Positions 18,073 through 61,475 of a stretch of 64,000 bases of DNA are shown in pieces. A program made the position numbers and the translations under genes. The stretch is from Dermatophagoides farinae. Its lineage: Eukaryota; Arthropoda; Arachnida; Sarcoptiformes; Pyroglyphidae. Location of the stretch: NCBI RefSeq assembly GCF_024713945.1, contig NW_027461517.1:186001-250000 (forward strand), in the 5' to 3' direction. Below the pieces are notes generated by a model. It was given only the letters and a program-made list of their open reading frames with translations, did no database searches and had not been told where the DNA came from. How positions within the stretch are numbered: the first letter of the stretch is position 1; every line of letters starts with the position of its first letter.

Positions 18073-20658
18073 ATGGAAAGAAGCCAAATAAATGCGGCAT
18101 TAAATAGTATTTTCGAAATTCATGCTTTCTCATTTGTCGCATTTTATATTTTCATCACTTTAAAGATCCATAAGTGGTCTGATATTCAGAAAATAACAGT
18201 TTTTTTGCTTGATGTAGCTCGTAATAAAAAAAATTCTACCGAGTTGGCTAAAGCTCTAAAGGAGTTAATGTTTAGTGAAGATCAAGTAAAGATTGTTTAT
18301 ATCCTCGCTAATTTAATTCAAATCAAAACAGAGACTTTAAGAAAATTTTATAAAAAGTTATCTAGGAATCCTTCTAAATATTTGGCCATTAAAAACGCGT
18401 CTCATACGTTACAAAAAAACAATTTTGGTTTCGTAAAACTTGAAAATTTCGATTTAAATTTCGCAAATGAAAAGAATATTGTTATTGAACCGATTAATCG
18501 CTACGTACGTAATTCAGAATTTTTTGGCCAGCGCATCAACTATGCTAAAAACCATCTAGATGTATTGGGCATATCTATAGCAGACAAGTTTCACCAAAAT
18601 CTATGCAAACAACAAGACTTAATCGCTAAAAAATGGATTAAAAATAAAGCTACGTGGGAGATCGATAATATGGACTACAGGAACGATTTTGCTAAAAGAG
18701 GGATTGAGGCAGTTCAAAAAAAAATGGAATCCAGTTTACCGGTAGTGGCTCATTTCAACTCAGTCGTCGAAACTGTGTTAAGGAACCAAGTTACTATCGT
18801 TGTGGGAGAAACTGGATCTGGAAAAAGTACCCAATTACCTTATTTGTTGTATAAAAAATTAAAAGAGGTCAAGAATGAAGATGCAAAAATAGCAGTTACT
18901 CAGCCACGACGAATCGCAGCAATATCTCTAGCCTCATATGTTAAAAGTATTTTGGCCGAAAAGAATGAACAGAATTTGGTAGACTACGCTGTTAGATTCG
19001 ATAACAAGTCCACAAAGTTTACCCGGATTAAATACATGACAGACGGGTTGTTACTGAGAGAAATAATACTGGATACGCAGTTGTCGAATTACTCTGTTAT
19101 CATAATTGATGAAATACACGAAAGAAGCGTTACTATCGACTTGTTAGTTGCCATTTACAAGTTGAACTTTTTTAAAAAGTCAAATCTAAAATTAGTAATT
19201 ATGTCTGCCACCATGGAGGCGCAGCTGTTCTCAAAATTTTTCGATTATGCTGTCGTAATAAACATTCCCGGAAGAATTTACAATGTGAAAGTAAACTACC
19301 TTAACACTGTTTCTGAAGAATACATTAGTAATGGACTGAATATCATCGTTGATATTTGTTTATCTGACGATAGTGGGGATGTACTTTTTTTTCTTCCTGG
19401 AAAGGAAGAAATATTAGTTGCGTGCGCACTACTTAAAAAAATGTATAACGATAAAATAAAAGTCATTGGAAAAGACCGATCAGACGTTAAAGAATTAATA
19501 ATTTTGCCGTTATATTCGAATTTATCCAAAAGTGAACAAGAACTCGTATTTGTAGAAACACCTCCAAATAGTCGAAAAGTAGTGCTATCAACAAATATCG
19601 CCGAAACATCGGTAACTATTCCCAATATCGTATTCGTTGTGGACTCGGGGGTCGAGCGAAAAAACGTGTATTGTCCTATGATTCAGGGAACGTCGCTGAT
19701 CACGGTCCAAATTGCGAAGTCAAGTGCCAACCAACGAAAAGGTCGAGCTGGACGAGTCAAAGACGGTGTTTGCTATCGGTTATATTCACAAGAGTTTTAC
19801 GAACACAATATGGAAGAGTTTCCCATGCCTGAAATTTGCCGCGTAGAAACTGACGAAATCGTTCTAATCCTCAAAAAACTTGGCGTAGTAAGCGTGTTTG
19901 AAATGGAGTTTGTAAATAAGCCACACGAAGAATTTTTTCTCACTAGCTTAAACAATTTGTGGAAGTATAAGTGTTTAGACGATGATGGTTTGCTTACAGT
20001 CCTTGGTGAACTTGTGTTGGAATTTCCACTTCCAGTTGACATGGCTCTCTTGTGTTTAAAAGCTGCTGAGAAAGGTTGTTTGAATCCTATCTTGAAAATT
20101 GTGTCCATGATTCAGGTACAAAACGTGAGATATTTCAAAAAAAAAGACAATCTAAATGGGTTTGACGAAAACAAATTCATCAATATATTGGACAGCGATC
20201 ATTTGAGTCTTCTTAATTTTTTTGAACATTTCGTCAACGCGGAAAACAAAGCATCCTGGTGTTCCTCGAATAATGCGAATTACGAAAACCTTTCAAACGC
20301 AGTATTGATTTACAAACAACTTGTACTAGTTTGCGAAAGCTTGAATCTCGAATTGTCAAATGATTTGTCAAAGGAAAAATTGATTTCCGTCTTGTGTCTA
20401 TCTTTTTTCTCAAGACTCGCCCGTAGATACGATCTTAATTCAGCTTACAGATCTGTCATGCACCAGATTAAGGCAAATCTACATTACAACTCGATTCTGA
20501 GTGGGGAACAGCCCGAATTCATTATTTTCACTTCTGTCATCAATAACAACGGGCGAACATATTTCGACTGCTGCACTAAAATCACAATTCAGCAAATATT
20601 GGCATATCTTAACGACTACTACGACATTAAGAGTATTGATACACAAATTAAATTATAA
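18073..20658 (+). CDS. DEAH-family ATP-dependent RNA helicase (Prp2/16/22/43 type)
   Basis: 861 residues. Superfamily 2 motifs are in order: GETGSGKS (motif I, about residue 244), TQPRR (Ia), DEIH in DEIHERS (II, about 346; family usually DEAH), SAT (III, about 378), NIAETSVTI (V) and QRKGRAGR (VI, about 556). A winged-helix/ratchet region and an OB-fold-like end follow, including an EFIIFTSV segment where family members read EWVVYHELV. The 200-residue N-terminus is helical and specific. These helicases remodel spliceosomes or pre-ribosomes using any NTP. Subfamily is not certain; absence of an S1 domain argues against Prp22. The Ile in motif II also occurs in some family members. The spliceosomal role is supported only by the other splicing genes nearby. 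Confidence 0.9.
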   Translation: MERSQINAALNSIFEIHAFSFVAFYIFITLKIHKWSDIQKITVFLLDVARNKKNSTELAKALKELMFSEDQVKIVYILANLIQIKTETLRKFYKKLSRNPSKYLAIKNASHTLQKNNFGFVKLENFDLNFANEKNIVIEPINRYVRNSEFFGQRINYAKNHLDVLGISIADKFHQNLCKQQDLIAKKWIKNKATWEIDNMDYRNDFAKRGIEAVQKKMESSLPVVAHFNSVVETVLRNQVTIVVGETGSGKSTQLPYLLYKKLKEVKNEDAKIAVTQPRRIAAISLASYVKSILAEKNEQNLVDYAVRFDNKSTKFTRIKYMTDGLLLREIILDTQLSNYSVIIIDEIHERSVTIDLLVAIYKLNFFKKSNLKLVIMSATMEAQLFSKFFDYAVVINIPGRIYNVKVNYLNTVSEEYISNGLNIIVDICLSDDSGDVLFFLPGKEEILVACALLKKMYNDKIKVIGKDRSDVKELIILPLYSNLSKSEQELVFVETPPNSRKVVLSTNIAETSVTIPNIVFVVDSGVERKNVYCPMIQGTSLITVQIAKSSANQRKGRAGRVKDGVCYRLYSQEFYEHNMEEFPMPEICRVETDEIVLILKKLGVVSVFEMEFVNKPHEEFFLTSLNNLWKYKCLDDDGLLTVLGELVLEFPLPVDMALLCLKAAEKGCLNPILKIVSMIQVQNVRYFKKKDNLNGFDENKFINILDSDHLSLLNFFEHFVNAENKASWCSSNNANYENLSNAVLIYKQLVLVCESLNLELSNDLSKEKLISVLCLSFFSRLARRYDLNSAYRSVMHQIKANLHYNSILSGEQPEFIIFTSVINNNGRTYFDCCTKITIQQILAYLNDYYDIKSIDTQIKL

Positions 20659-20760: not shown

Positions 20761-20845
20761 GTTATCAGACAGCCAAGAGAACATTGAGTCATCAGAGCAT
20801 ATTCAGAGACTCTAGTCTGTAAAGATGTTGGTGTCATCATTTAGT
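20761..20845 (-). ncRNA. Box C/D snoRNA candidate 3, two guides to LSU rRNA
   Basis: Reading the minus strand: box C ATGATGA (20840-20834), D' CTGA (20806-20803), C' CTGATGA (20795-20789), D CTGA (20768-20765). The guide before D can pair with ACAGCCAAGGGAAC, a conserved LSU sequence near the peptidyl-transferase region, over 14 positions with one G-U pair. The guide before D' pairs with GACTCTAGTCTG, which lies about 50 nt further on in the same rRNA region. Two independent matches to neighbouring rRNA sites make chance unlikely. The terminal stem is weak. rRNA sequences are recalled from yeast and human, not from this organism. Confidence 0.72.
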
Positions 20846-20849
20846 AATT

Positions 20850-20930
20850 GTAAAATCAGCTAGGGGTGAAAGACAATTTTGAATACACTTATGATAAGCG
20901 ATCAAAGTACGTTCTGCATCATTTTACGTG
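20850..20930 (-). ncRNA. Box C/D snoRNA candidate 2
   Basis: Minus strand: imperfect box C ATGATGC (20922-20916) and box D CTGA (20859-20856). The 14 nt before D (complement TAGGGGTGAAAGAC) match the conserved LSU segment TAGGGGCGAAAGAC at 13 of 14 positions; the mismatch may be real variation in this species. No clear internal D'/C' boxes. It lies 15-18 nt from its two neighbours, giving a regular tandem array. Weaker than the flanking two. Confidence 0.5.
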
Positions 20931-20935
20931 TTACA

Positions 20936-21002
20936 GTTTATCAGAGAGGAGTCAGTCCATCAATCTTATTCAGACTGGGGCGACAATCATCATCATGTGC
21001 GA
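20936..21002 (-). ncRNA. Box C/D snoRNA candidate 1, P-loop methylation guide
   Basis: Minus strand: box C ATGATGA (20996-20990 or 20993-20987), D' CTGA (20973-20970), C' TGATGGA (20962-20956), D CTGA (20944-20941). The guide before D' pairs with ACTGGGGCGG, the large-subunit P-loop. By the D+5 rule the target is the second G of the GGGG run, the position equivalent to E. coli Gm2251, methylated by guide RNA in yeast. The guide before D (target form GAGGAGTCAGTCC) has no rRNA match that I recall. First of three tandem genes, probably processed from one transcript. Confidence 0.7.
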
Positions 21003-21091
21003 CTTGCCACTTGTTAGTTTCACAAAAAATAAAAAAAAAAGAAAGAATTGAAAAGACAAAACATCGGCTATACTATATTTTAATACTAATT

Positions 21092-21437
21092 ATGTCATTA
21101 TTTTGCCCAAGCTGCCATAATTTTTTATTACTAAGTGAAAGCTCGGCAAACAAAGCATTTAGTTGTAGATCTTGCCCTTACACTTTTTTAATTACTAACT
21201 CAGTATCTCATAAGTTTGAATTTCCTCAGTTAGAGATTACTGACATAAAGAGACTTGAAAAAGAACAAAGCAAAACTCGATAAGATTATCGCTACATGTA
21301 GAGAATGTGGCAATAACGAGTGTTACAGTTGGAATTTGAAGTTGAGTGATAGTGACACGCAGGAAACTTGTTTCTTTCGTTGTATTAACTGTTTACGCGT
21401 TTTGGAAAAAATAGTTAAAACCGTAGTCTATAATTAA
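21092..21437 (+). CDS. RNA polymerase III subunit RPC11/RPC10-like, with a frame change
   Basis: Polymerase III subunit needed for RNA cleavage and termination. The first part, MSLFCPSC, AFSCRSCPY, then HKFEFPQLE, matches the N-terminal ribbon of POLR3K (family MLLFCPGCGN, FSCNTCPY, KYPKL). The second part holds CRECGNNECYSWNLKLSD and CFFRCINC, the TFIIS-like C-terminal ribbon. The two halves are in different frames. The first stops at 21283 and the second is open from about 21255. Dropping one A from the run at 21258-21262 would join them to about 114 residues (family 108). The catalytic acidic hairpin is altered: the family reads RSADEP where this reads SDSDTQ. Could be a sequencing indel, a pseudogene or a frameshifted gene. 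The frame also runs upstream of 21092, but that part overlaps the snoRNA array. Confidence 0.72.
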
Positions 21438-25986: not shown

Positions 25987-27711
25987 GTTGTTATTTTCAG
26001 AGTCACGAAATAAGTCTGAAATCGTTTAAATAAAATTTTATAGTCTACTTGACAATCAATTTTGAGCACTAAAGAAACTTTTATTCAACGTATAATGTAA
26101 ATAGATTAATATTGTCCAAGAGTTTGCTTAAGATTACATAAGCTGGCTAAGTTTAGTGCCGAGATTTTTAGTTTGGTTCAAAATAAGTTAGCTGCAACTC
26201 GTATTCAGCGTCACGAGTCATTAGTTGTTTATGGATTAACCTTGAAATGATTGTTCTTTTTGAATTCTGTCAAACGTATTCTAACGATGTTTTTACAGTT
26301 AAATCACTGGAAAATAACAAACTAATAGGAAGGCGTCTGCAATAGTGTAAAAGTAGTAATTTCGAAGCCGAAAATTAGCTATGCTTATTTTAATTTATTT
26401 TAGCTTCATGCTGTCACAAATAAACTAAAATCAAATAAATTGTTTATGGGCGTTGCTGAAAATTAAAAATCTCGAATTACAAACTCGGATATTCTTCTTT
26501 TCGTACTCGATACTTAGTTTTACGAATGATCGAGCCGTTAACTTTAGTTCATGATAATTTTATTTAATTTGTAATTGCATACTATGTTTGTTAAAAATGT
26601 TCATAAAAAATTATTTGTAATTTTCTGCTCGTTACGGTGCAAAAACCAAAAGCTAATGTTATACAAAAATAAATATTAGTTGTTAATTTGACCACCTGGT
26701 TGAAAGTTATGAATAACAATATCACATACTATAGAACGTAAGGGTTTGCACAGAGCTACTTTCGGTTCAGATAGTTACACTTTTGTGAGCTGTAATTTAA
26801 CAAACAGCTCGTGGACTTTTTCTGAGCAACTGCATTGGATATTACAATGAATTTATATTAACAATTTGCTATGATTGTTTTTCTAAGTAAGAAAAAATGA
26901 CAAGCATAACAACGCCAGCCCGCTATTATAGTACTCAAACTGAAAATAATTTGTACGAATTTTGTGTTCACTTAAGAGTATCAGCCTTAAATTATACAAG
27001 TCATACAACTACATATGTCGAATATAAATGCTCTAGTCGATAGCAAGCGCTGTTGCCCAAAAAAATTACAAATAAATATTTCGAACGTTTCGGTGGTATC
27101 ACCAAAATAAAAATTTTACAATCTCTAAGATTGAATCGCTAAAAAAAAATCTACTTAAGTTTTGACTGTCAGCACTTCTCAGTCAACGAAATAATATGGA
27201 TAGTTTTGGAACATCCCTTTTAATCTACTACTACGATGAAAGAGTTTTGAGAATTGAAAAAGTCAGACTGCTATCTTCAATGCCAGAACGTTTAAAAAAA
27301 AAAGATCAAATATGTAGATAAAAAGTAAAAAGCGGAAAAGTACGTTAAGGCTGGTTAGCAAATACAAAGCAGCGAAAGGGATTGTTTAACAGTTAAAAGA
27401 AGAGCATTAGGAAATACCATCTTTAGAGATTGTTAGTTAGTTTTCGCACTGTTAAGCACATACAAGGCAATGAGGTGCCAAGCAGCGACTCTAAAATAAG
27501 TGCGGAAAAAAATTGCAGTATGAAACAAAGATGTAGTTAGCTTCTGCGTTTGTCCGGCTAAAAAGTTGACGTTGCGAAGAAACAAGTTGTTATACCATTA
27601 TTGAATCAGTTATGATAAAACTCGTTTTAAATAACTTCTGTTTAACGGCATGCTAATTGGAGGTTGTTGGGAGGGCATGAAATATGTAGTATAACAATAC
27701 ACTAATACGAT
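25987..27711. other. 1.7-kb gene desert
   Basis: The longest gene-free stretch in the window. No frame above about 60 codons on either strand apart from its right border, no GTAAGT-linked exons, no tRNA, and no canonical box C/D pair. A short hairpin (GGTG, loop GTAT, CACC) lies near 27092. A GGCTAAG near 26144 recalls U2 RNA, but the rest of U2 is absent. It may hold an unrecognised structured RNA (RNase P, SRP or snRNA) or be relic sequence; nothing can be named. Confidence 0.4.
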
Positions 27712-27951
27712 TTATCTCTCATTTACTTTCCCGAGCATTAGTGGAGAAAACGTACGTGACGTTAAATCCGTTAACATCGGTAAAAAAATACTAATTGGCA
27801 TCTCTTTGGCCGTTCTGTCTAGTTTGAAAAATAGCCGTTTAGTTGCGAATAATTGGGTATTTTTCGCATAATTTTTGTATTTTATATCAGGCTGGAAATG
27901 ATTAGGATAATTTTTAATTAAATGTTTGAAATAAAATTTTATATGTACCAT
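27712..27951 (-). CDS. Possible small basic protein, 79 residues
   Basis: ATG at 27951, stop at 27712, divergent from U1-70K with 29 bp between the starts. The product is basic and aromatic-rich at its N-terminus (FYFKHLIKNYPNHFQ) and more hydrophobic toward the C-terminus (PISIFLPMLTDLTS), without a clear signal peptide. The amino-acid mix looks protein-like, but no family is recognised and the length is near what chance gives. Its shared promoter position is the main support. Confidence 0.3.
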   Translation of the reverse strand: MVHIKFYFKHLIKNYPNHFQPDIKYKNYAKNTQLFATKRLFFKLDRTAKEMPISIFLPMLTDLTSRTFSPLMLGKVNER

Positions 27952-27980
27952 TGGAATGATTCATTAGGGTTATAAACTAG

Positions 27981-39751: not shown

Positions 39752-40147
39752 ATGGTTAGGAGCAAGAGTCGATGGGTACTTGTTAAGTTTTATGCGAAGT
39801 CGCTGTCTAAAAGTTCTGAATCAAGTTTGAATAACATAAGTTCCAAAGAAGTAATAGATAGCATCGAAGTCACGTACCGAAAACTATATGGAGCTATTGG
39901 ACTAGGGAATTTTGTGAAGGCCAGCTCCATAATTTATTTTAACAGCGATTTCAACTTAGCTATTTTGAAAGTTGAGTACTATTCTTATGAAAACACGTTG
40001 TGCAGCATTTTGTTGACAACATCGATTAAAGACGTGGTTGTAACACCTCAAATTCTAAGTGTTTCCGCAACCTTTCGGGGGCTAAAAAAAAATTTGAATT
40101 CAGCAACGAACCGGCTCGTGTCAATCGACACGTTGACCGTGGTTTAG
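39752..40147 (+). CDS. POP5: RNase P/MRP protein subunit POP5
   Basis: 131 residues. The start MVRSKSRWVLVKFY matches the POP5 opening (MVRFKHRYLLCEL). A ferredoxin-like core follows: YRKLYGAIGLGNF, then YFNSDFNLAILKVEYYSYENTL and a C-terminal RGLKKNL, aligning with the family's GxxG, Y-N-x(3)-G-x-x-L-L-R-C and R-x-C-Q-x-F regions. POP5 binds the catalytic RNA of RNase P (tRNA 5' maturation) and MRP (rRNA processing). The core is diverged but the order is right. The stop is 11 bp from that of the convergent deubiquitinase. Confidence 0.75.
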   Translation: MVRSKSRWVLVKFYAKSLSKSSESSLNNISSKEVIDSIEVTYRKLYGAIGLGNFVKASSIIYFNSDFNLAILKVEYYSYENTLCSILLTTSIKDVVVTPQILSVSATFRGLKKNLNSATNRLVSIDTLTVV

Positions 40148-42342: not shown

Positions 42343-42589
42343 CGTTTGTGAAGTTTTAGTGATAATTGGTATTGTAGAGTTTTTCAATTTTAGAAATTAT
42401 AAATAATTTTTTATATTTAGGAATTATGGGCAATGCAATTTTCTTTCCAATGTGGTTGTCTATGCAATGATTCATAATAAATCTTCTTAGCTGAATTATT
42501 GTGAAAGTTTGTTGTTTTTCATGTATATAAAAAAATTACCTATGCTGGCTGCTTTAAACGCCTAGATATTATCTAATCTAATTAAAAAC

Positions 42590-42662
42590 TGGACGATCAG
42601 GGAATCGAACCCTGTACCTCTCGCATGCGAAGCGAGCGCTCTACCAAGTGAGCTAAACGCCC
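42590..42662 (-). tRNA. tRNA-Ala (anticodon CGC)
   Basis: 73-nt cloverleaf read on the minus strand. Acceptor GGGCGTT with ATCGTCC, including the G3-U70 pair that defines alanine tRNA. D-arm GCTC, anticodon stem CTCGC/GCGAG with loop TTCGCAT, T-arm CAGGG TTCGATT CCCTG, discriminator A. There is one U-U mismatch at 6-67. No intron and no encoded CCA. Confidence 0.95.
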
Positions 42663-42810
42663 AAACCTTAGAAATTTTCACGTTGCCATACAGAATATGA
42701 CGGTGTAAGACAAATGAGAAGTTGTACTAGAAATAAAACTAGGCTCACGGTACAAACGTTAATTTAATAAATTACCGCGGGTTTGAGACAACCGTTCGAA
42801 CTATTAAACA

Positions 42811-42882
42811 GCCTATGTAGCATAGTGGCATTGCACTGGTTTTGTAAGCCAGAAGTCATGGGTTCGATTCCCATCGTAGGCT
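42811..42882 (+). tRNA. tRNA-Thr (anticodon TGT)
   Basis: 72-nt cloverleaf. Acceptor GCCTATG pairs with CGTAGGC (one G-U), anticodon stem CTGGT/GCCAG with loop TTTGTAA, T-loop TTCGATT, discriminator T. A short T-run (CTTTTG) follows at 42881, a likely RNA polymerase III terminator. No intron. Confidence 0.95.
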
Positions 42883-42944
42883 TTTGTTTTCAAGCCTCTA
42901 TGGTATTAATCATAGTACTTAAATTATAATTACATCTTTAAAAA

Positions 42945-43016
42945 GGGCTGCTCTGGGAATCGAACCCAGGACTTCTTCGTCCCGAACGAAGAATCATACC
43001 ACTAGACCAAGCAGCC
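42945..43016 (-). tRNA. tRNA-Pro (anticodon CGG)
   Basis: 72-nt cloverleaf on the minus strand. Acceptor GGCTGCT/AGCAGCC fully paired, anticodon stem CTTCG/CGAAG with loop TTCGGGA, T-loop TTCGATT, discriminator C. D-arm region TGGTCTAGTGGTATGAT is typical of eukaryotic proline tRNA. Third of three tRNA genes within 430 bp. No intron. Confidence 0.95.
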
Positions 43017-49103: not shown

Positions 49104-52100
49104 ATGAACATCACTAAGAACGATATATCTTCTATCATTTCAACTTTGCTGGCTGTCAATGTCGATTTAGAAGCTCAATCTGAGATTATTGAAAAATACT
49201 TACTTAGTTCCCGTAATTCTTTTTTGATCGTCGCTATCACTCCTGACGAAAAACTTATTGTACATGTAGATCGATTAGTAACTCCCGTTAAACGTTTTGT
49301 GTTATTTATTAAAGATAAGATTTTCAATACGACGGTATTTTACAGTGAATCTGAAATTTTAAATGATTCCGATTTAGTAGAGTCGATGAAAAATTTATTT
49401 CACGATACTGTAAAAACTTATTTAGACTCTGTTGAGTTTTCGGAGAACAAACAAATTACGACAAATCACGTATTGAAACGTTTTTTAACGCAAAATGAGC
49501 GTCCATTTGCAGATCTTTTTGTCATAAAATCTGAAAAACTTACAATATATATCAATACCGTATTGAATGAATTTTATCTTACGGAAAAGCAATCTACTGA
49601 ACAGACTTCATACTTAGTAGCTAAAATTAAAAGTAATAGCGAATTCTATACTGAACTTATGAGTCAGGCAATTCATTGGAACAAGAAAATATCCGAGCTG
49701 TTATCTCTCAATAGAAATGTGTTTTTACTGTCAACTTATTGTACTAAAACTCAAGAAATAATTAAACTTCTCGAGGAATTAAAGTTACAACTATCCTTTA
49801 ACGACCAAACGAAAATAATCATAGAAATTTACAAAACTCTCAAGACTGATTTAAGTCCAATATTTATCAGTTCGATCTTGGATACAACTTTAAATTTTTT
49901 TCTCGATATGAAAAAAACACTGGAGTATGTTTCGAATGAGTTGGAATCTAACTCCATTGAAAAGCTACACAGACAAATAGACGACGTACTCAATAAAAGT
50001 GTCGATTTTTTATCGCGTTATCAAAGCAGCAATGATGAAACACAGGTTTGGGTAGACTGCTTCATAAATTCAGTTATACTGGCTATACTTCACGCAACTG
50101 TTAAAAATATAATGTTAAAATCAGAAACAAACTTGGAAGGATGGGAAATGGCCGTGACCTGGTTGACTCACCAAAAATATAAAAATTTCTTCTCCAAAAT
50201 CAGTTCTATTTCTTTTTTCAATGATAGCAAGTTTCAAACTCTAGTAATTTTACTTAAAAATCTGATAGAAGTAGAATCAGAGGTACTGCTCGAAATAAAA
50301 AAACATCAGAGTTATGTAACTTTTCTAAAAATTTTTGATACGACTAGTATACAAAATGATGAAAACCTACTTTTACAGGCTGACAAGAGTTCATGGTTGT
50401 TGGAGAGAATTATTAGCACCTCCGGAAACAAGTTAAATATCAAAATTTCTGACGTATTAACCCAAGCGGGTAAAAATGAACTGGAATACCATGAATTACT
50501 CGGCGTATTTGTCAAAGAAAAAGAAGCTTTGTCTCTGTACAAAAAAAACATATTCGAAGTTTGTTACAAAATACGCAAAACAGGGTCTAAAATCGAGAAT
50601 AATTTTCTCGACAGCAATGGTTCAATATTCGAAATGTTAGATAAAATACTGTATTTAAATTGTTATCTTATGGATGTAAAAACCGAGACATTTTACGGGT
50701 ATGACGAGCTAATTTTGTCATCATTTCAAGAAATATTGGCCCAACTCGACGTGCAACAACTTAAATTAAACGATGACAACGATAATGTTTGCATCCAGAT
50801 CTTAACTAACTATGACTTTAAAAGCTTAAAATCATATCAAGTATTTATCAAGCAAGTGAAGCTTGCAGTTAAAGTTTTTTTTGAGTCAAACAAAATTAAG
50901 ACGGAATCATACGAACAAGTCAATCTGTTGTGTCAGAAAAAAATTGATGAACTGATCAAAATAATGGAAACTATAAAATTCAATCTTTATCTATTCACTC
51001 AAGAGTACTTCAAACAAACAATTGACTCGAAAAAACTGATCGAAGTAATTGAGGCTGGTGAAACTTATCGACTGGTCATAAGAGATTTGGATCGGCTGAA
51101 ACTTTTTTCCAACTGGCTAAATGCCAAATTTGCAGGTTTTGATGAAGAGGACTCTATCGACGTTTTCATTTACCCGCTCGATTACAGAAATAGAATCAAT
51201 AAAGAGTTATTAATTTATAGCAAACTTAACGTCCTAGAAAATGCGATCAAAGCTATTGAAAAGCTTTTTTCATTGATTGAACGTTCCGAAGCGTTGAGTA
51301 TGGACCGCCAGTTAGTATTTGACAGTTTTTATACTTCATACTTTGATCTCCTACGTGAAATTAAAACTTTCACTGATAGCACTGAAATAGAACTAGAGTT
51401 AGACAATTATATTACCAGGCTTTTGAAGTTTAAGTATGAATTTAACTGGTTTACAACTATTATTGCCAAAATCAATTTTTCACTCAACTTGCATGACTAC
51501 GTGACATCGTTTGAATATGCAAAAAGTGTCAATAAAAAAGAACTTTACGAACGGGTTATAAAGATGATAATTGTGAAAGTGACAAAAACTGTGACAGATA
51601 AACTTAGCCATCTATTGCACGACACGTATCATTCTGACAGCCATTTTAACGTAGATTTCACGAACGATAATTTCTTAGAATCTCCTTGGATTATTGGAAA
51701 ATCTTTTAAATCTATGTTGAGAGTGAAATGTGAGCAGTTAATCAGCGAAATACCAGAACCAATATTCAAAGACGTATGTTCTTCTGAAAAGATTCAAGCA
51801 TTATTGTTTGAGTTTTCTAAAATAAAGGAGACAGCTATTACTCAGTTGCTTTTATTGGCAAAAAGAATTTTCAGACTATTGATGATCCCGGTTCGTGCCC
51901 AAGAAATGACAGAACTTTATTCTTTCGAAACTTTCGAAACACTAATTAATGATCTTGTTACATTAAAAGAAGAGACAACTGTAATTAAAGAAGTTTCGAA
52001 ACAAATTTCTACCCATGGTTTTCAAATTTCAATCGATGAAAATACCGTTAATCTTGTATTGCCACAAAGCTTTGTGAAAATATTAGAATCAAAAACTGCT

Positions 52101-55100
52101 GAATTAGCAGAAAAAACAACTATCATTAATTCAGTTTTTACAGCTTTTTACGACTACTACAATGAGAAGTTTTATTCCATAGTTGAATTCACCAGTAAGT
52201 TTGAATATTGTACGCAAATTTCAATTTTTTACAAAGTATTTTCAAACGAATTTTTTTTATGCGAATATGAACCTCTTTACAAACGTATTGCGACTAATAA
52301 GACATTAATCAATCAGGAAGTTGACCTTGATACTTTCGTGACAATACGTCAAACGCTTACCAGAATTACTAAAAACTATGAAATTATCACGCGTATTTTG
52401 ACATTTGCCGTAAAAATTTGCATAGATAAAGCATTACACCTAGAAAATGAATTTGATTTTTCGTGTTTAGAAAAATTTAATATAGTTGATGATATAGTAG
52501 CGGGACAATTCGATGATCAGATAATGTTTAGTTACGAACCAGCAAGCGGCTTTCCCGAAGAACCAAAAAAGAACATTTTGCAACTATTTCAAAATTATGT
52601 ACGAGATAATGTTAAAGATTATGAGAATATCCCAGAAGAAGAAAGTTTATTGCAGTTTGCATTGCTGATAGTGAAATTTCAAAGTGAGTTTTCACAATTT
52701 TTCACTGAGAATGATTGCGCTGTACTAAAAGTAAATATTGACAAACTCGAAAGAAAACGATGTATTGCAGTCAAGAACTTAAAGATAAAGAAAATTTTCA
52801 CAGATTTAATGTTTTGTCCATTTGAAAAGTTGTCTTACGAGCAAATTTTTTTGAAAACCGAGGAACTAAAGTCCGAAATATCTAGCAAGCTTAATTTGAC
52901 GGAACATGACAATGCTATATTGGGTATTTTGAATAAGTTAGATTTGAATTGCATAGAAATTCTTTTGAACCAACAAGATAGTTCTAAAATTAAAGAACTA
53001 TTATTATTAGAAATTACGAATGCGAGTAATAGGATTTACGATTTCTTGGGCATTTATTATCGCGAAAATAATTTTAAAAAATTAGCTGACAAACCGGGGG
53101 ATACCAGCAAATATTGTCTTCAATTGTACCAGCCACAAATCGATCTGTTATCTATTTCTTGCATTGATCGTGATAAATTCGACAATATCATCGGTTTTGC
53201 TAAAAATGAAACGATATTCAAGAAAACCGTCAAATCTATTGACGATATTTGCAAAAAAATCGTTATAAAAATAGATCAGCATGTAAGGCTCCAAATATTC
53301 TACCCCAGTAATTTGGAAGTTAACGAGATATTGATAAACGAAGCGTTACAAATGTTTTCAAGATTTCATGAAGAGAAATTTAAAATGCAGTTTACCGATG
53401 AAATTGCTCACAAAAGTTGTTATCTTAACAGAATCAAGAATTACATTTGTTTATTTCAGAATTGTTCAAATCTGTTTTTGTATTTGTTCAACCTATTCCA
53501 ACGCAACTATCCTGGTGTTAATAGTCAAAAGGACATTTTCGAAGGATGCTTGAAAGAATATCATAGAATTTTCAATAACGCTACGGCAATCAGTATCGAC
53601 GAACTTTTAGTTTACGACACTATAGTCGATATTTTATATGATAAACTGAACTCCATTAAAAATTCTCTTAGTCAGGTGCTAAACAAATATAAAAAACTTT
53701 ACCCCAGATTCAATTTACTAAGTAATGAATCGTTATGCGAACTACTAGGTTCGGGGGAAGACATCGACGTACAAAACAAATACATTTCACAACTATTTTC
53801 GTGTATCAATAGATTCTTATCTGATGGAACAAACATTCACGGATTCATCAGTTGTGATGGTGAAACATTTTTGCTTGATGAAAATCTCAAACTTTCAGAG
53901 GATATTACCAGTTTTTACGGTTTATTGGAAAACATGTTAGTTAAATCCTTTTCGAGCAAAATAGAAATAGCTTTGTTCAAGTTTTACGATATCTGGCAAA
54001 ATTATAATGAGCTCGAATTATTAACTTTCATACAACAGTCTTGCTTTCAAAGTATTGTTTGTTGTTTTTTTTGGTATTTTCCAACGTTGCTTCTTTCAAC
54101 TTTTACGGATAATAAACAAAAAAACAAACTCGACAATTTTAAAGACAAAGCTTTGAAATTCGATCAATCCGACCCAATCAGCATTGAAAAACAATTTGAT
54201 AGTCTATTTCAATTTCAGTCATATCTGATTGAACAATTAAAACTAATCACATCGGAATTTGAAACAAGAAAAATAGCAAATATAATTATCATAATAGAAT
54301 ACTTAGTTGAAATTTATGCTCGATACGCACAGATATCTGAAAAATCCCTACTTTCACTCGAAAAATTCAAAAACACTATAATATGGTATGACATAATGGC
54401 TATTGGCGAAAAACTAGAACTGAATTTATGCAGCGGTCACGTGTGTTTGAAATACAATTATCAATACATAGGATGTCCCGATTTTTTGGTATTAACAAAC
54501 GAAGACGTTAATGTTCTTCAAAACTTGTTGTTTGCAAGCTTTAACAAGTACGGCACGTCTTTATCAGGGCCTGCCGGCACTGGAAAAACAGAATTAATAA
54601 AACTGTTCGGACTTTTAATGGGTAGCCGCACAATTGTCTTGAATTGTGGCGAAGATTTCAAATCTGTCAATATAGAACAAATCGTAAACACAGCCATATT
54701 CTGCCAAGAAAATATTTCATTCGACGAATTTAACAGACTATCCAATGAAACTCTGAGTTCATTGACAGACATTATAAACAACAATAGTTCGATGATATTT
54801 TTAACAATGAACATCAAATATTCCGGCCGAAACAACATACCTCACTGTGTTGAAGCAAGATTTCGCAAGACACTATTAAATATAATCGACAATTCGCATA
54901 TTATTGAAACTTTGCTAAAGGCGAAGGGCTTCACAAATAATAAAACAATGGCTAAATTCATTGTTGACTTATTTGCTGTTTTAGAGAAGGAAAAAATTTC
55001 TTTCATGGCGGATCAAACAGGTTTTAGATTATTTAAAACAATTATTTCAGCGTGCACTTTAGCAGACAAAACAAACAATATCGAAACAGAGTTTGCAACA

Positions 55101-58100
55101 TTGGTATTTCATATTCGAAATATCTTTTCAGCAGTGCTCTCAAACAGCGACTACTTGCGCTTTGATCAACTATTGCTCACTAATCTGCAAAAATCTCTGC
55201 TTACAACGCGTGCACAGATTGAAAAGCTTTTATCACTTATCAAGCGTGGTGATGCAGAACTTTACAATAAAACACGGGCTTTCTGCGAAAAAAATTCACT
55301 CAATATGTCAGATAGCCTTTACAATAAACTAATAGAGTTTAAAATGCTTATTAACGAAAAAAATGGAATTATTGTTTGTGGAGAAACGCTGAGCGGTAAA
55401 AGCACATTGATCGACCTACTATTAAGCACATACAAACACTATACAGCTGTAAAATTTTTCCCCAACGCCCATAATACGGAAGATTTTTTTGGTAGTTCAG
55501 ACAATATCAATCGTGAATGGAAGGATGGTTTTTTCACAAGTTATTTGAAACATTTGTTATCAAAAATTCATTCCAACAACACGAATTTGGGCCCCCATAC
55601 GCACTTTATCATATTTAATGGACTAGTGTTTCCGCACTGGGCTGAAAATCTAAATTCAATTCTGGATAGCAATCGCATTTACACGCTTCCAACTGGTGAA
55701 CGATATAAAATTCCCGAATCATTCAAATTCATTTTTGAAACGAGATCAATTGAGTATCTTACATTAGCCACATTTTCCCGGTGTAGCATACTCAAAATCA
55801 CTAATGAACTTTACGATTTGTACAGCTTACCCAACACAGCGTTTAAAAAGCCATTATCATGTTCTTCACAGAACGTGCAACACGATAGCTCTATAAATAA
55901 TGTTACTAATCAAGACGGTACAAGAAGCAAAGATGATAAATGTGTCACAGAATCTGATTATTCATCAAGAATTGTTGAATTTTTTAAACGATTATTCGAA
56001 AATACTTCTTTTTTTAACTCAACAAAGCAGTTATATGAAAAATATAGTAGCGAAACTGTTTTATCGTTTCTCAACTACAATCAATGTTTATTCAACTTGA
56101 TTAAAGTTATCAGGGTGTTTCGAAGCTTTGAGGAAAAAAACTTGAAACTTAAACTTGCATTGCGTTCTGATTCAGATATAATACTATTACTATCTACTCT
56201 AATTGTTTATTTTTTATTTTCTACTAATATAGATATAACTAATACTACAAAGTTTGGTCAAGAATTGATTGATTTAATACATGGAATATTTGGATTTCAT
56301 GAAAAACCCAATTTGCACTCGCTACTCAATTTATTCTTAGAACTTTTGTCGATTTCAGATATTGATAGCTTGTTTGAACAATTATGTCGTGAAAAAACTA
56401 ATTCAGACAACATTACTCAACTAGAGAACTCTATTTCAACAACTCGAGATGTATTTTCCATGTTATTTTTAGCAATGAATATCAAAGAAAATAACGATGT
56501 GTTTATTTTTGGACCTTTAGGCTGTGGAAAATCACTGATAGCAAAAAACACGCTGAATCAACTTGCCTATTGTTATGAATATGAGTTAATCAATTTTTCT
56601 CAAAATACCAGAGTGACAGATTTGATTGATTTGCTTTTTAAATCTTGTCTATTAATTAAAAATACTGAATATTACACGCTAAAGGCACGGGCAGTTAATA
56701 AAAAAAAAATTATATACATCAGCAATCTAGATTTGCTTGCCCATAACGTGGACTGTAACGAAAAGGAATGTATTCTCGAATTCTTGTATGAACTCGTCAC
56801 AAATAAAAGTTTCTGGTACTTTGAAAACAAAAAGAATTATTGGGTAAAAGTCGTACTCGAGGACGTTCAATTTATTACAAGTTTCAGTGCAATAAATAGC
56901 AAAGCCGAAATCCGCATTCCACCGCATTTACTATCGAGACTTTTTTTCTTATCAGTTAAATATCCAACAACTGATGAATTGAAACACATTTGTTTAGTCA
57001 AATTTAAAAAAACAATCGAGAAACATACAAGTTGTTCACCAAACCAGGTCAACTCTATTTCTGAAAAATTTGCAAATGGTTGCGTTGACTACTTCTTAGT
57101 TTGCATAAAAGAACTTCACTTTAAACGTCCACATTATATACTCAGTCCCCAAGACCTGCACAATTGGCATTTAGCGTTTCATACTTTCATGCCAAACCTA
57201 AATTTAGATACACCAATTGAAAATGTATTTGAAGAACTCACGCTACTATTAGTACATGAGGGAAGAAAATTATTTTGTGATAAATTGGTAGAAAAAAACG
57301 AAAAGCTCTCGTATTATGAAAAGTTGAAAGAAACTTTCAATGTTAGATTTGATGACAATTTTCTTTATAGCAGTTTCTCTGAAGGTCATCTCAAAAGGTG
57401 CTCTACCGAAGAACTCCGTAATCAGTTGTCAACTAAAATAAATAACATAGATTATATATTTGATAACGGAAAATACGTACTTTATGACGATTTTATTTAT
57501 CATTTGACCAGTATTGTTCGATGTTTCTCCATCCCTGATTGTCATTTAGCTTCTATTGGAAACGTCGCAATAGGAAAAAGTTCACTTTGTTTTTTATCCA
57601 GTTGCATTACAGAAGTTCAGTATCTTAATTTCCATCCCCACGATTATGACGATAAAAAATATTTTCAAAGTATACTTGAATCCATAATAACGGGCTGCGG
57701 CATTGAACAAAAAAAAATCTGTTTACACATAAATATAGTTGACTCAGCAAACGATGACGTCATCAAGTTTATAACAGGTTCGTTGTTAAACTACGACTTC
57801 ATCACGAACATGGATCATGAGCAGCTCAAGTTATTGTTAGACAAATTTTTGCCTAACTGGTGTAGAGCAACCCCGATTGATTTCAATAGTCCGTTGATAT
57901 TGAATTTGGTGAATAATATCAAACAAAATTTGACAATGGTGTTCACTTTGGAACCTTTAAACGAAGATGACTCAGCAATTTCATTTAAGCTTAGAAACTT
58001 GTACTCGCGATGTGTCATTGATTATTACGGAGAATTAGACGAAGTTAGTTTGGAAAAAATAGCACATGACATATTGAACGATGAGGTGTTAACTGATCTT

Positions 58101-61100
58101 GCAAATTTCAGACTAGTACACAAAAAAGGAACAGACTCGATATCGTTGCCAAAGGTTCATTCAATTATAAAGTATAATAGCAAAGGCTACATGGTCACTC
58201 TAAAGAACTATTTCCAATTTTTAAAAAAGCTCAACGAAATGTTCTGTAAACTGACTGATTCCTGCGATAAAAAACTGAAGAAATTAAACAATGCGATCAC
58301 TATCATTAATGACACAAATAAACTTATAGTCAATCTGAAGCAAGAATTAGATTTAAAACGCAAAGCCATCGAACTTGAGAAGTCCTTTGCGAACGAACAC
58401 CTCAGCCAGATAACTGAAAAACAAACCATGATCATAAACACAGAAAAAGAGTCTCAGAATCTGACGCAAGAATTGGAAAAGTTACTACACGATAATGACA
58501 AAGAGTTAAAAGACATCAACAAAGAAAAAGCCCTCCTTGTGGACATGTTTGAACAATCCAAAATGTTTATAGATCAGCACTATAAAGAAATCGACCAGGT
58601 CAAGACGCTCAAACAGCCTTCATCCTTGATCCAAAGTTTAGTTACATGGGCAGTTCAAATAGTAACTTCAAATATGGAAATTAAAGAATGGGCTGAGGTA
58701 CGAACACATACCGTATCCTATTTTGCAAACAAAGTAAAAGCGTGCAATGTAAACAACATTACAGCAGAGCTCGCTTCAAAAATTCAAGCCGAAATGGCTG
58801 AACAAAAGCTGAATAAAGAACGAATCAAAAACGCCGGTGCGATAGCGGTTGCATTGTATGAGTGGATAACAGCGATCTTGAACTTTGGTTATTTAAATGA
58901 TAAAATAACAGTTATTGACGAAAAAATTGCAAAAGCCAATGGTATAAAGAAGCAGTACCAAAGCCAACTCGACTTGAACAGAGCAATCATTGAAAATGCC
59001 CAACAAAAACGTGAAGAATATCAAGCTAACTACATAAAACTTCTTGACAAAATAAAAAGGTTTGAGGCAGAAATAAACAAGACTGAAGATTCGCTCAAAA
59101 GGTCGGAAACTATAATCGAATTTATAACAGAAGAATCTAAGCATTGGTATTTAGAATTGAAAAGCTTAAAGTCTCTGAACCAGGCTAAGAGCGTTTACTT
59201 GATCCTACTTGCCGCATTCACGTCTTATTTCGGTATTTTCGAGGCCGAGGAGCGAGAAAAGCTTTTTGAAACAATACTGACTTACATTAAGTCCTGTTGC
59301 GGTTCTCTCGCAATTACTTCATTGAACGAACTCCTCACATTATACGTTTCACTCACCGAAGACAAACGTTACTCCACCGCGATACACGCGTCTAAAAAGC
59401 AAATCAAAACTCAAAACTCAATTTTATTAAACGAAGTCACTCAGTATCCCATGCTGATTTATCGTCACAGCCAAGCGGACGACCACATCAAGTTATTGGT
59501 AAACAGATTTACACAATCATACAAGGAACTGGCAGCAAACGCCAACAACTTTGAAGCAAATTTAGCAATGTGTAAAAAGTTTAACATACCTGCACTTATA
59601 AATTTGCACAACGAGTTTCCTACAATCTTGTATTATGTTCTGGCAAACGATGCTTATCTTTACACACTCGCAGACAATGCTGAAACTGCAAGGATTAAAG
59701 ATGAACGAAACAACAATAACTTCCAAAATTACGTACTACGTGCCCGTTCAACTAACGTCCTTATTAATAAAACCTGCTTTCAAAGCAATATATCTGTCAT
59801 AAATTACTTTGAATCTAGCTCTCAGATGGATGAAATGATTCTGAATATAATATCAGAAAAATTTTTATGCAAAACTCAACACAAACTACAAATCAGCCAC
59901 ACGAGCTTACTAAACATGAATAACGAAATCACCGAACTCAGAAGTTCTCTTTTGTCAATGTTTTTGAATAACGACATTTGTGATTTAGTTAATCAAGAAT
60001 ATAACAACCTTATTATTATAATGAGGAAGTTGAATTCGGACATAGCTAGCAAGAACGCAATTTTGACAACTATTGACCAGGAAACCAAAGAAAATCAATC
60101 TTCTCTAGAGTTATTGCGTGCTCTCACGAAAACCGTTAGTTGTATCTTCGCAGAGTTCGAAAAATTTTTTAAGCACAAAACAGTCATTTTGGAATTTTTT
60201 ATTAAGCTTGTTACTTTCCTTGTTAATAATTTAACCAGTAGTTCCGACGTTTCAGCGGAAAACTTGTCGAAATGTTGTTTTGAATTTCTTCAAGAACTTA
60301 GCACACATCTTTTGACTTGCGTTTATTATTTTCAAAACAACCAAGCAGTTTGGATTCACTGCTTCGTGTCAATCGTCAGTGCTTTTGCTGACAAATCATG
60401 GTACAAAGAATTGAGATCGGGGCTCGAGGCGCGAGCTACGGAATTCGTCGACTTCGTCGAGGCAATTTTCCGAGTTAACAGTTCGCAGGCGACTTCAGAA
60501 AGGCTCTTTGCTCAAAACCTAAGCCTGGTAGAGAATCAAAACTTGGTCGTTTCACAAAATGATTTTATCGATTTCATGGCCGAAAATATATTGGACAAAG
60601 ACATGGGGCTCATGATTTTAAACTTTCATGACACAAACGTCGAGAAGATATTTACAGACCGGTTTATAAAAAATCATGAAAACGAGACTATTAAATTTCT
60701 GCAAGCGGGAGACATGTTTACAAATGCAAAGTTGCAAAGCGAACTTGAGAAATATTTGACGATTCCCACCAATGCGGAGTACAAGACTTACTTGATCATA
60801 CAGCATTTTCATCTTGTGAACAGAACTATCTCGAACTATTTATACGAATTGGTTCAATCGAACAATGTGAGGGTGATTTTAATTACGGAGAAGCGACAGC
60901 TTAGTATTGCACTATTGGAGGACTGTTTTCTACCTATATTTTATAAAGAAGAATTGTCAATTGCGGAATATATGAAACTTGGATTAAGCATTTTAACCCC
61001 AGGTGAGCAAAATAATATTGTCTGCAAAAAACTTTGTGTCTTACAAAGCATACTAAACTTCCGATCGCGTTTTACCCCGATTGGTTTCAGTGTGCATTAT

Positions 61101-61475
61101 AATTTCACGCTTTCAGATTTGCAGTACGCGGTCAAACTGGCGGCGAACACGTGTTTGACGATTGACGTTTTGCTGGACGTGCTAATGAAAAACGTATATG
61201 GACCAAAAATATTTGAACCTATTGATGTTGCCACACTACAAGCGATAGTTAAAGCAATATTTTTGGCCGAGCCCTCCGATTTATTTGAATCGAATGAGTT
61301 AACAACAATAGATTATGACACGGTAGACTTACTAAATATTGAAAAGACATTTCCGCAAACTCGCGACTTTCTGATAAGTGGAATGTCGAACAGCGACAAA
61401 ACCTTGTTTATCGACTTTATGGGTAGAGAATATACAAATCTTTGCACAAGAACACGCCAGTTTAATAGCATGTAA
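49104..61475 (+). CDS. Dynein heavy chain, cytoplasmic-1-like length
   Basis: Minus-end microtubule motor, 4,123 residues in one exon. A tail of about 1,800 residues precedes six AAA modules. P-loops: AAA1 GPAGTGKTE (about 1820) with Walker B SFDEFNRL, AAA2 GETLSGKST (about 2092), AAA3 GPLGCGKS (about 2469), AAA4 GNVAIGKSS (about 2818). A coiled-coil stalk with microtubule-binding tip spans about 3040-3350. AAA5-AAA6 follow and the C-terminal domain is short, as in yeast Dyn1 (4,092). Axonemal chains are usually longer. AAA1 is canonical, other sites diverged. Starts 93 bp after MCM5; its stop is 3 bp from that of the convergent gene. Confidence 0.95.
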   Translation: MNITKNDISSIISTLLAVNVDLEAQSEIIEKYLLSSRNSFLIVAITPDEKLIVHVDRLVTPVKRFVLFIKDKIFNTTVFYSESEILNDSDLVESMKNLFHDTVKTYLDSVEFSENKQITTNHVLKRFLTQNERPFADLFVIKSEKLTIYINTVLNEFYLTEKQSTEQTSYLVAKIKSNSEFYTELMSQAIHWNKKISELLSLNRNVFLLSTYCTKTQEIIKLLEELKLQLSFNDQTKIIIEIYKTLKTDLSPIFISSILDTTLNFFLDMKKTLEYVSNELESNSIEKLHRQIDDVLNKSVDFLSRYQSSNDETQVWVDCFINSVILAILHATVKNIMLKSETNLEGWEMAVTWLTHQKYKNFFSKISSISFFNDSKFQTLVILLKNLIEVESEVLLEIKKHQSYVTFLKIFDTTSIQNDENLLLQADKSSWLLERIISTSGNKLNIKISDVLTQAGKNELEYHELLGVFVKEKEALSLYKKNIFEVCYKIRKTGSKIENNFLDSNGSIFEMLDKILYLNCYLMDVKTETFYGYDELILSSFQEILAQLDVQQLKLNDDNDNVCIQILTNYDFKSLKSYQVFIKQVKLAVKVFFESNKIKTESYEQVNLLCQKKIDELIKIMETIKFNLYLFTQEYFKQTIDSKKLIEVIEAGETYRLVIRDLDRLKLFSNWLNAKFAGFDEEDSIDVFIYPLDYRNRINKELLIYSKLNVLENAIKAIEKLFSLIERSEALSMDRQLVFDSFYTSYFDLLREIKTFTDSTEIELELDNYITRLLKFKYEFNWFTTIIAKINFSLNLHDYVTSFEYAKSVNKKELYERVIKMIIVKVTKTVTDKLSHLLHDTYHSDSHFNVDFTNDNFLESPWIIGKSFKSMLRVKCEQLISEIPEPIFKDVCSSEKIQALLFEFSKIKETAITQLLLLAKRIFRLLMIPVRAQEMTELYSFETFETLINDLVTLKEETTVIKEVSKQISTHGFQISIDENTVNLVLPQSFVKILESKTAELAEKTTIINSVFTAFYDYYNEKFYSIVEFTSKFEYCTQISIFYKVFSNEFFLCEYEPLYKRIATNKTLINQEVDLDTFVTIRQTLTRITKNYEIITRILTFAVKICIDKALHLENEFDFSCLEKFNIVDDIVAGQFDDQIMFSYEPASGFPEEPKKNILQLFQNYVRDNVKDYENIPEEESLLQFALLIVKFQSEFSQFFTENDCAVLKVNIDKLERKRCIAVKNLKIKKIFTDLMFCPFEKLSYEQIFLKTEELKSEISSKLNLTEHDNAILGILNKLDLNCIEILLNQQDSSKIKELLLLEITNASNRIYDFLGIYYRENNFKKLADKPGDTSKYCLQLYQPQIDLLSISCIDRDKFDNIIGFAKNETIFKKTVKSIDDICKKIVIKIDQHVRLQIFYPSNLEVNEILINEALQMFSRFHEEKFKMQFTDEIAHKSCYLNRIKNYICLFQNCSNLFLYLFNLFQRNYPGVNSQKDIFEGCLKEYHRIFNNATAISIDELLVYDTIVDILYDKLNSIKNSLSQVLNKYKKLYPRFNLLSNESLCELLGSGEDIDVQNKYISQLFSCINRFLSDGTNIHGFISCDGETFLLDENLKLSEDITSFYGLLENMLVKSFSSKIEIALFKFYDIWQNYNELELLTFIQQSCFQSIVCCFFWYFPTLLLSTFTDNKQKNKLDNFKDKALKFDQSDPISIEKQFDSLFQFQSYLIEQLKLITSEFETRKIANIIIIIEYLVEIYARYAQISEKSLLSLEKFKNTIIWYDIMAIGEKLELNLCSGHVCLKYNYQYIGCPDFLVLTNEDVNVLQNLLFASFNKYGTSLSGPAGTGKTELIKLFGLLMGSRTIVLNCGEDFKSVNIEQIVNTAIFCQENISFDEFNRLSNETLSSLTDIINNNSSMIFLTMNIKYSGRNNIPHCVEARFRKTLLNIIDNSHIIETLLKAKGFTNNKTMAKFIVDLFAVLEKEKISFMADQTGFRLFKTIISACTLADKTNNIETEFATLVFHIRNIFSAVLSNSDYLRFDQLLLTNLQKSLLTTRAQIEKLLSLIKRGDAELYNKTRAFCEKNSLNMSDSLYNKLIEFKMLINEKNGIIVCGETLSGKSTLIDLLLSTYKHYTAVKFFPNAHNTEDFFGSSDNINREWKDGFFTSYLKHLLSKIHSNNTNLGPHTHFIIFNGLVFPHWAENLNSILDSNRIYTLPTGERYKIPESFKFIFETRSIEYLTLATFSRCSILKITNELYDLYSLPNTAFKKPLSCSSQNVQHDSSINNVTNQDGTRSKDDKCVTESDYSSRIVEFFKRLFENTSFFNSTKQLYEKYSSETVLSFLNYNQCLFNLIKVIRVFRSFEEKNLKLKLALRSDSDIILLLSTLIVYFLFSTNIDITNTTKFGQELIDLIHGIFGFHEKPNLHSLLNLFLELLSISDIDSLFEQLCREKTNSDNITQLENSISTTRDVFSMLFLAMNIKENNDVFIFGPLGCGKSLIAKNTLNQLAYCYEYELINFSQNTRVTDLIDLLFKSCLLIKNTEYYTLKARAVNKKKIIYISNLDLLAHNVDCNEKECILEFLYELVTNKSFWYFENKKNYWVKVVLEDVQFITSFSAINSKAEIRIPPHLLSRLFFLSVKYPTTDELKHICLVKFKKTIEKHTSCSPNQVNSISEKFANGCVDYFLVCIKELHFKRPHYILSPQDLHNWHLAFHTFMPNLNLDTPIENVFEELTLLLVHEGRKLFCDKLVEKNEKLSYYEKLKETFNVRFDDNFLYSSFSEGHLKRCSTEELRNQLSTKINNIDYIFDNGKYVLYDDFIYHLTSIVRCFSIPDCHLASIGNVAIGKSSLCFLSSCITEVQYLNFHPHDYDDKKYFQSILESIITGCGIEQKKICLHINIVDSANDDVIKFITGSLLNYDFITNMDHEQLKLLLDKFLPNWCRATPIDFNSPLILNLVNNIKQNLTMVFTLEPLNEDDSAISFKLRNLYSRCVIDYYGELDEVSLEKIAHDILNDEVLTDLANFRLVHKKGTDSISLPKVHSIIKYNSKGYMVTLKNYFQFLKKLNEMFCKLTDSCDKKLKKLNNAITIINDTNKLIVNLKQELDLKRKAIELEKSFANEHLSQITEKQTMIINTEKESQNLTQELEKLLHDNDKELKDINKEKALLVDMFEQSKMFIDQHYKEIDQVKTLKQPSSLIQSLVTWAVQIVTSNMEIKEWAEVRTHTVSYFANKVKACNVNNITAELASKIQAEMAEQKLNKERIKNAGAIAVALYEWITAILNFGYLNDKITVIDEKIAKANGIKKQYQSQLDLNRAIIENAQQKREEYQANYIKLLDKIKRFEAEINKTEDSLKRSETIIEFITEESKHWYLELKSLKSLNQAKSVYLILLAAFTSYFGIFEAEEREKLFETILTYIKSCCGSLAITSLNELLTLYVSLTEDKRYSTAIHASKKQIKTQNSILLNEVTQYPMLIYRHSQADDHIKLLVNRFTQSYKELAANANNFEANLAMCKKFNIPALINLHNEFPTILYYVLANDAYLYTLADNAETARIKDERNNNNFQNYVLRARSTNVLINKTCFQSNISVINYFESSSQMDEMILNIISEKFLCKTQHKLQISHTSLLNMNNEITELRSSLLSMFLNNDICDLVNQEYNNLIIIMRKLNSDIASKNAILTTIDQETKENQSSLELLRALTKTVSCIFAEFEKFFKHKTVILEFFIKLVTFLVNNLTSSSDVSAENLSKCCFEFLQELSTHLLTCVYYFQNNQAVWIHCFVSIVSAFADKSWYKELRSGLEARATEFVDFVEAIFRVNSSQATSERLFAQNLSLVENQNLVVSQNDFIDFMAENILDKDMGLMILNFHDTNVEKIFTDRFIKNHENETIKFLQAGDMFTNAKLQSELEKYLTIPTNAEYKTYLIIQHFHLVNRTISNYLYELVQSNNVRVILITEKRQLSIALLEDCFLPIFYKEELSIAEYMKLGLSILTPGEQNNIVCKKLCVLQSILNFRSRFTPIGFSVHYNFTLSDLQYAVKLAANTCLTIDVLLDVLMKNVYGPKIFEPIDVATLQAIVKAIFLAEPSDLFESNELTTIDYDTVDLLNIEKTFPQTRDFLISGMSNSDKTLFIDFMGREYTNLCTRTRQFNSM

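Follow-up and report, generated by a model that had tools for sequence, protein, structure and literature searches.

The minus strand of a 64-kb stretch of Dermatophagoides farinae DNA (contig NW_027461517.1, positions 186,001 to 250,000; hereafter the window, in whose own numbering all coordinates are given) carries four box C/D small nucleolar RNA (snoRNA) units within 324 nt, at 20996-20673. The cluster is genuine and conventional, and it is one unit larger than noted before. A sequence-only reading of the same DNA had described three units; those three are real, and because a fourth (20747-20673) had been missed, the cluster extends to 20673. Judged from their sequences, the four units very probably belong to one precursor and guide methylation at four sites in large subunit (LSU) ribosomal RNA (rRNA) and at C34 of tRNA-Met.

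Four box C/D units on one strand

All four units have a box C and a box D, and of these eight terminal boxes all but one are exact consensus; the exception, box C of unit 2, reads ATGATGC and is one position off. Unit 1 (20996-20941) has its box C at 20996-20990, with a second, overlapping ATGATGA beginning at 20993, and its box D at 20944-20941. The corresponding boxes lie at 20922-20916 and 20859-20856 in unit 2 (20922-20856), at 20840-20834 and 20768-20765 in unit 3 (20840-20765), and at 20747-20741 (ATGATGA) and 20676-20673 in unit 4. For the first three units (C-box starts 20996, 20922 and 20840; D-box ends 20941, 20856 and 20765), boxes and strand agree with the earlier description. Internal boxes, which it had placed in two units, are present in units 1 (D' at 20973-20970; C'-like TTGATGG at 20963-20957) and 3 (D' at 20806-20803; C' CTGATGA at 20795-20789), with D' being CTGA in each.

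From box C to box D, units 1-4 measure 56, 67, 76 and 75 nt. The 15-18 nt spacing described for the first three units holds, their gaps being 18 and 15 nt, and the 17-nt gap preceding unit 4 resembles these two. The spacers are AT-rich and contain T runs (TTTT past unit 2, TTTTT ahead of unit 4). In unit 2 a terminal stem between GTAAAA (20927-20922) and TTTTAC (20855-20850) juxtaposes boxes C and D and widens the unit to 20927-20850; a stem of about 4 bp can be drawn in unit 4, and units 1 and 3 have no plain stem. The cluster has no apparent host intron.

To count such units in the window, we searched both strands of the 64 kb for non-overlapping pairs of RTGATGN and CTGA lying 40-95 nt apart. 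Eight were found (three on the plus strand and five on the minus strand), four of which are those of the cluster. Among 300 simulated Markov sequences, each 128 kb long, no 350-nt stretch held more than two units: the maximum was two in 42 sequences and one in 258. The four other box pairs in the window (plus strand, 19982, 31259 and 44697; minus strand, 57805) fall within the coordinates of listed open reading frames (ORFs).

Guides antisense to LSU rRNA

Pairing partners were taken throughout from other organisms. For LSU rRNA we used eukaryotic 28S DNA, consisting of positions 1-1750 of contig L002, which match the Rfam family LSU_rRNA_eukarya at 915.5 bits, and the first 230 nt of contig L001, a piece that was retrieved with a typed 28S pattern and in which no Rfam family reaches cut-off. 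(L002 is a contig of a Thermodesulfobacteriota metagenome-assembled genome, DHS20C13; its positions 1-1948 hold eukaryotic 28S rRNA and then GGGGTTT repeats, which look telomeric and suggest ciliate-type contamination.) The sequence-only reading had quoted four LSU stretches as complements of the guides. Three were recovered whole, ACAGCCAAGGGAAC and GACTCTAGTCTG in L002 and TAGGGGCGAAAGAC in L001; the fourth, ACTGGGGCGG, is incomplete, as L002 contains just CTGGGGCGG of it, with a G ahead. Its interpretation of the locus as a box C/D cluster with guides antisense to LSU rRNA is supported.

We scored the 18 nt ahead of every CTGA site (522 sites) for pairing with the LSU reference, allowing G-U pairs and mismatches. 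The unit 3 D guide ranked 1, the unit 2 D guide 2, the unit 3 D' guide 3 and the unit 1 D' guide 15, though these ranks are no blind test, because the score was devised after the ranking by Watson-Crick runs had been seen. The two remaining internal CTGA sites of the cluster ranked 189 and 402 of 522. Duplex energies of the four LSU guides are -19.8, -22.0, -21.6 and -24.5 kcal/mol. Together with the D guide of unit 4, these make five guides (unit 1 D', unit 2 D, unit 3 D', unit 3 D and unit 4 D) that abut box D or D' and pair with a stable RNA, and in the predicted register the fifth base from the box (D+5) meets, in all five, a residue reported as 2'-O-methylated in yeast, human or plants.

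The unit 1 D' guide pairs with GCTGGGGCGG of the fetched LSU sequence and places D+5 on G632 of L002, the equivalent of yeast Gm2619. The unit 2 D guide pairs with TAGGGGCGAAAGAC with one mismatch, at a position where T would suit the window's guide and L001 has C (the T version is absent from L001); its D+5, G48 of L001, we infer from the register of snR60 to be the G equivalent to yeast Gm908. In unit 3, the D' guide (D+5 on T447 of L002) is directed at the site of yeast Um2421 and human Um3904, and the D guide (D+5 on C391 of L002) at that of human C3848. The reported methylation sites matched are thus Gm908, Um2421 and Gm2619 in yeast, and Um3904/U52 and Gm4166/U31 together with Arabidopsis counterparts; for the unit 3 D guide, C3848/SNORD53 and C2355/U53, snoR37, are further reported matches. 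No D' guide was established for unit 2 or unit 4. The D guide of unit 1 was considered as a guide for Gm2793 and rejected, since its D+5 falls on the adjoining G2794 (by the yeast sequence) and a mismatch lies beside the target.

At curated cut-offs, an Rfam scan of the window lists three tRNAs only. Below the cut-offs, unit 1 matches snR67 (27.5 bits) and U31b (24.3 bits), unit 3 matches SNORD53/92 (32.3 bits) and TtnuCD15 (26.7 bits), and these matches share their guide register with the cluster units. Only the 5' half of the snR67 alignment supports unit 1, because the alignment overruns the D box into box C of unit 2 (20917). The rRNA units appear to work like the named families, and homology is plausible; because scores remain below the Rfam cut-offs (32.3 versus 46, 27.5 versus 55 and 23.7 versus 41 bits), we speak of working alike and not of formal membership.

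A candidate guide for tRNA-Met

Unit 4 appears to guide methylation of tRNA-Met and is the part of the cluster most worth following. Its D guide, GGATTATGAGAT followed by CTGA, forms 10 consecutive Watson-Crick pairs with positions 31-40 of tRNA-Met from other organisms, with D+5 on C34. The tRNA-Met arm itself served as the search pattern by which the three public contigs were chosen; ARAGORN calls tRNA-Met(CAT) genes at the fetched places, and the arm is therefore real. We take these genes to be of the elongator type. In the C34 register, 10 pairs are found at one of 523 CTGA sites, and the runner-up has 5. Pairing of unit 4 with the LSU reference is poor (rank 474 of 522), and its duplex with tRNA-Met (-15.0 kcal/mol) is weaker than those of the four other accepted guides. 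When any position on both strands is considered, the window also contains an 11-base match to the arm at 52628, inside a dynein gene and with no D box.

We also searched viral_contigs (2.9 million contigs) with a pattern of TGATGA, 38-66 nt and GATTATGAGANCTGA. It occurs at two places, both in ORFs of phage contigs. One (L007 1334-1399) lies in an ORF resembling phage terminase large subunits; the other (L006 10729-10810) lies in an ORF with an open end, and its contig has matches to phage DNA polymerase and GTP cyclohydrolase families. No Rfam family reaches cut-off in either contig. Both were taken as chance and rejected as relatives of the cluster; chance matches to the pattern thus do exist, at a very low frequency.

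In humans, SNORD97 and SCARNA97 guide Cm34 of tRNA-Met, and guide candidates are reported from vertebrates, insects, Ciona, Arabidopsis and rape (PMC6601510). A further paper describes archaeal C/D sRNAs aimed at the first anticodon base of tRNA-Met (PMC7994747). Among 40 of the 41 papers that name SNORD97, snoU97, SCARNA97 or SNORD133, two have titles on eukaryotic microbes, Ostreococcus tauri (PMC7671301) and the fungus Trichophyton rubrum (PMC3890542); the excerpted passages of the former refer to the human example without claiming a homologue. We therefore do not present such a guide as unreported outside animals and plants.

Weighing the alternatives

Several observations weigh against the interpretation of the cluster as a set of working guides. 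No unit folds better than shuffled sequences (z from -0.11 to -1.04; unit 2 taken with its terminal stem reaches -0.97 for the whole fold, which is no better), and a clear terminal stem is confined to unit 2. No Rfam match of the cluster lies at or above cut-off, and across the whole window the best E values are 0.013 (SNORD53/92) and 0.19 (snR67), next to an implausible match, a greA leader, at 0.12. For unit 4 no family match is clear: the best of 19 Rfam matches up to E 10 has an E of 0.14 and is partial, and none of the 19 carries the name SNORD97, the library's content for SNORD97 being unchecked. LSU ranks 4 to 14 are held by sites outside the cluster, and by unbroken Watson-Crick runs alone only the unit 3 D' guide (12 bp, joint first) stands out, the other runs being unexceptional (9 for unit 3 D, 8 for unit 1 D' and below 8 for unit 2 D). 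The unit 1 D guide ranks only 53 of 522 and its target residue is not in the yeast methylated list, and this rejected guide has a duplex (-15.5 kcal/mol) as stable as that of unit 4. Once any register on the three tRNA-Met genes is allowed, unit 4 ranks 4 and not 1.

A coincidence of boxes and antisense stretches within an AT-rich spacer is nonetheless scarcely credible. CTGA is frequent (524 in the window), and the sites ranked 4 to 14 are strong single LSU matches elsewhere, but comparable clustering arose in none of the 300 simulations, and ranks 1 to 3 all lie in the cluster, 3' of a box C and in the register of known guides. The LSU ranking, the count in the C34 register and the clustering simulations already contradict chance. 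A decayed or untranscribed pseudogene array, with functional guides elsewhere in the genome, would agree with Rfam scores that are all below cut-off and with the one-off box C of unit 2; the exact consensus of the other terminal boxes and the guides, which are the best preserved portion, make it very improbable. A narrower possibility concerns unit 4, which might consist of chance boxes, or be an orphan C/D RNA aimed at some other target, beside three true rRNA guides. Its lack of a clear Rfam match, its weak terminal stem, a duplex no stronger than that of the rejected guide, the chance 11-base match in a coding gene at 52628 and the two matches to the whole pattern in phage ORFs speak for this alternative. 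It has to contend with perfect C and D boxes that share the strand of unit 3 and follow it by 17 nt, with more than five pairs in the C34 register at this CTGA site alone of 523, and with a very low rate of two pattern matches per 2.9 million contigs, and we consider it distinctly unlikely.

The transcript itself could differ from a four-gene precursor, with all or some units transcribed separately, as mono- or dicistronic RNAs. AT-rich spacers with T runs able to end RNA polymerase III (Pol III) transcripts would suit such an arrangement, and independent units have been suggested for one three-gene cluster in Dictyostelium, where snoRNA clusters are reported (PMC8817022). Yet promoters would hardly fit into spacers of 15-18 nt, and polycistronic snoRNA precursors are called standard in plants (PMC5122169); clusters are also reported in Plasmodium (PMC2656528). 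Separate transcription seems unlikely to us. The T runs in the spacers weakly disfavor Pol III, because it could stop within the cluster.

Proposed processing and meaning

If the four units share a precursor, its transcription would probably start in the 95-bp gap beside an RPC10-like gene, and processing would release four RNAs, each of about 56-76 nt with short flanks added. Bound by fibrillarin and the C/D core proteins, each would form a ribonucleoprotein that directs 2'-O-methylation to whichever target nucleotide pairs with the fifth base counted from D or D'. In LSU rRNA, units 1-3 would in this way modify four residues, two G (those of yeast Gm2619 and Gm908), one U (that of yeast Um2421) and one C (that of human C3848); unit 4 would modify the wobble C34 of elongator tRNA-Met.

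The locus adds a compact snoRNA cluster that Rfam at curated cut-offs does not report. Unit 4, if confirmed, would extend RNA-guided wobble methylation of tRNA-Met to another eukaryotic lineage, would tie a tRNA guide physically to rRNA guides, and would bear on the inheritance of this tRNA modification route from an archaeal-like ancestor of eukaryotes. RNA-guided methylation of this nucleotide is reported for archaea (PMC7994747), and guide genes for animals and flowering plants (PMC6601510); the site pair of unit 3 is common to plant snoR37, Tetrahymena TtnuCD15 and the organism of this cluster. The proposal that wobble methylation of elongator tRNA-Met by a guide RNA is ancestral in eukaryotes, and was kept here by co-expression with rRNA guides in one transcript, could in our judgment equally well prove right or wrong, as could its companion, that the double guide of unit 3 is likewise ancestral and that human SNORD52 and SNORD53 split later.

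Neighboring genes

A DEAH-box helicase gene (18073-20658, plus strand), whose best PDB matches are splicing-factor DEAH helicases of the Prp22, DHX8 and Prp43 types, converges on the cluster and ends 14 nt from the D box of unit 4; no relative of it was found in viral_contigs. On the other side, a gene resembling that of the Pol III subunit RPC10 (21092-21437, plus strand; first ATG at 21092) diverges from the cluster. Its N-terminal zinc ribbon best matches the Pol III subunit RPC10 (E 2.1e-8); the C-terminal TFIIS-type ribbon, in a different frame, is not Pol III-specific (best match 1qyp, then RPA12, then RPC10). A GT-AG intron could link the two ribbons of this RPC10/RPC11-like gene, for which there are 21 candidates, the shortest being 22 nt (21229-21250), or the frame change could be an assembly indel. 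The 95 bp that separate unit 1 from the first ATG of this gene (20997-21091) are, from their position, presumed to be a shared upstream (promoter) region.

Further away, the window encodes a eukaryotic set of proteins, with matches that include BING4, MCM5 and SF-assemblin. An uninterrupted dynein heavy chain ORF of 4,123 codons occupies 49104-61475 (plus strand), and the same window encodes splicing proteins (U1-70K, the Saf4/Yju2 family and the splicing-type DEAH helicase). A gene for an Rpp14/Pop5-family protein, presumably a subunit of RNase P/MRP, lies at 39752-40147 (plus strand), and three tRNA genes (Ala, Thr and Pro) on alternating strands lie within 430 bp at 42589-43016. About 2 kb at 25990-27980 has no listed ORF of at least 100 amino acids and no Rfam match, and could hold non-coding RNAs or an intron-bearing gene.

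Comparison with known systems

Patterns for unit 3 and unit 1, and two further 28S/18S patterns, gave no matches in viral_contigs. Unit 1 resembles yeast snR67, human U31 and AtsnoR35, the guides for LSU Gm2619/Gm4166/Gm2610, in its D' guide GTCGCCCCA and in register, with D+5 on the second G of CTGGGG. Unlike snR67, it spans just 56 nt from box C to box D, its D guide misses the second site listed for snR67 (Um2724), and the Rfam alignment does not stop at its D box. Unit 2 shares the register of snR60 in its D guide, GTCTTTC-CCCTA ahead of CTGA; it has the box C ATGATGC, and no D' guide for the Am817 site was established. Unit 3 is like Tetrahymena TtnuCD15 in carrying both guides on one RNA, D' and then D, and like plant snoR37, to which both of its sites are assigned. 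In humans the two sites are split between SNORD52 (Um3904) and SNORD53 (C3848), and the yeast lists consulted hold the Um2421 site (snR78) and no entry for the second. Unit 3 scores below the Rfam cut-offs.

Unit 4, compared by guide only, is like SNORD97 and SCARNA97 in having a D guide on the tRNA-Met anticodon arm with D+5 on C34; unlike these human RNAs, which are intronic, it sits in a tight cluster with rRNA guides. Pyrococcus C/D sRNAs against the first anticodon position of tRNA-Met share the target nucleotide and the kind of mechanism, but are archaeal (PMC7994747). As an array, the cluster is like those excerpted for plants, Dictyostelium and Plasmodium, which consist of tandem C/D genes with co-transcription shown for some; unlike the Dictyostelium clusters of two or three described there, it comprises four units with 15-18 nt spacers.
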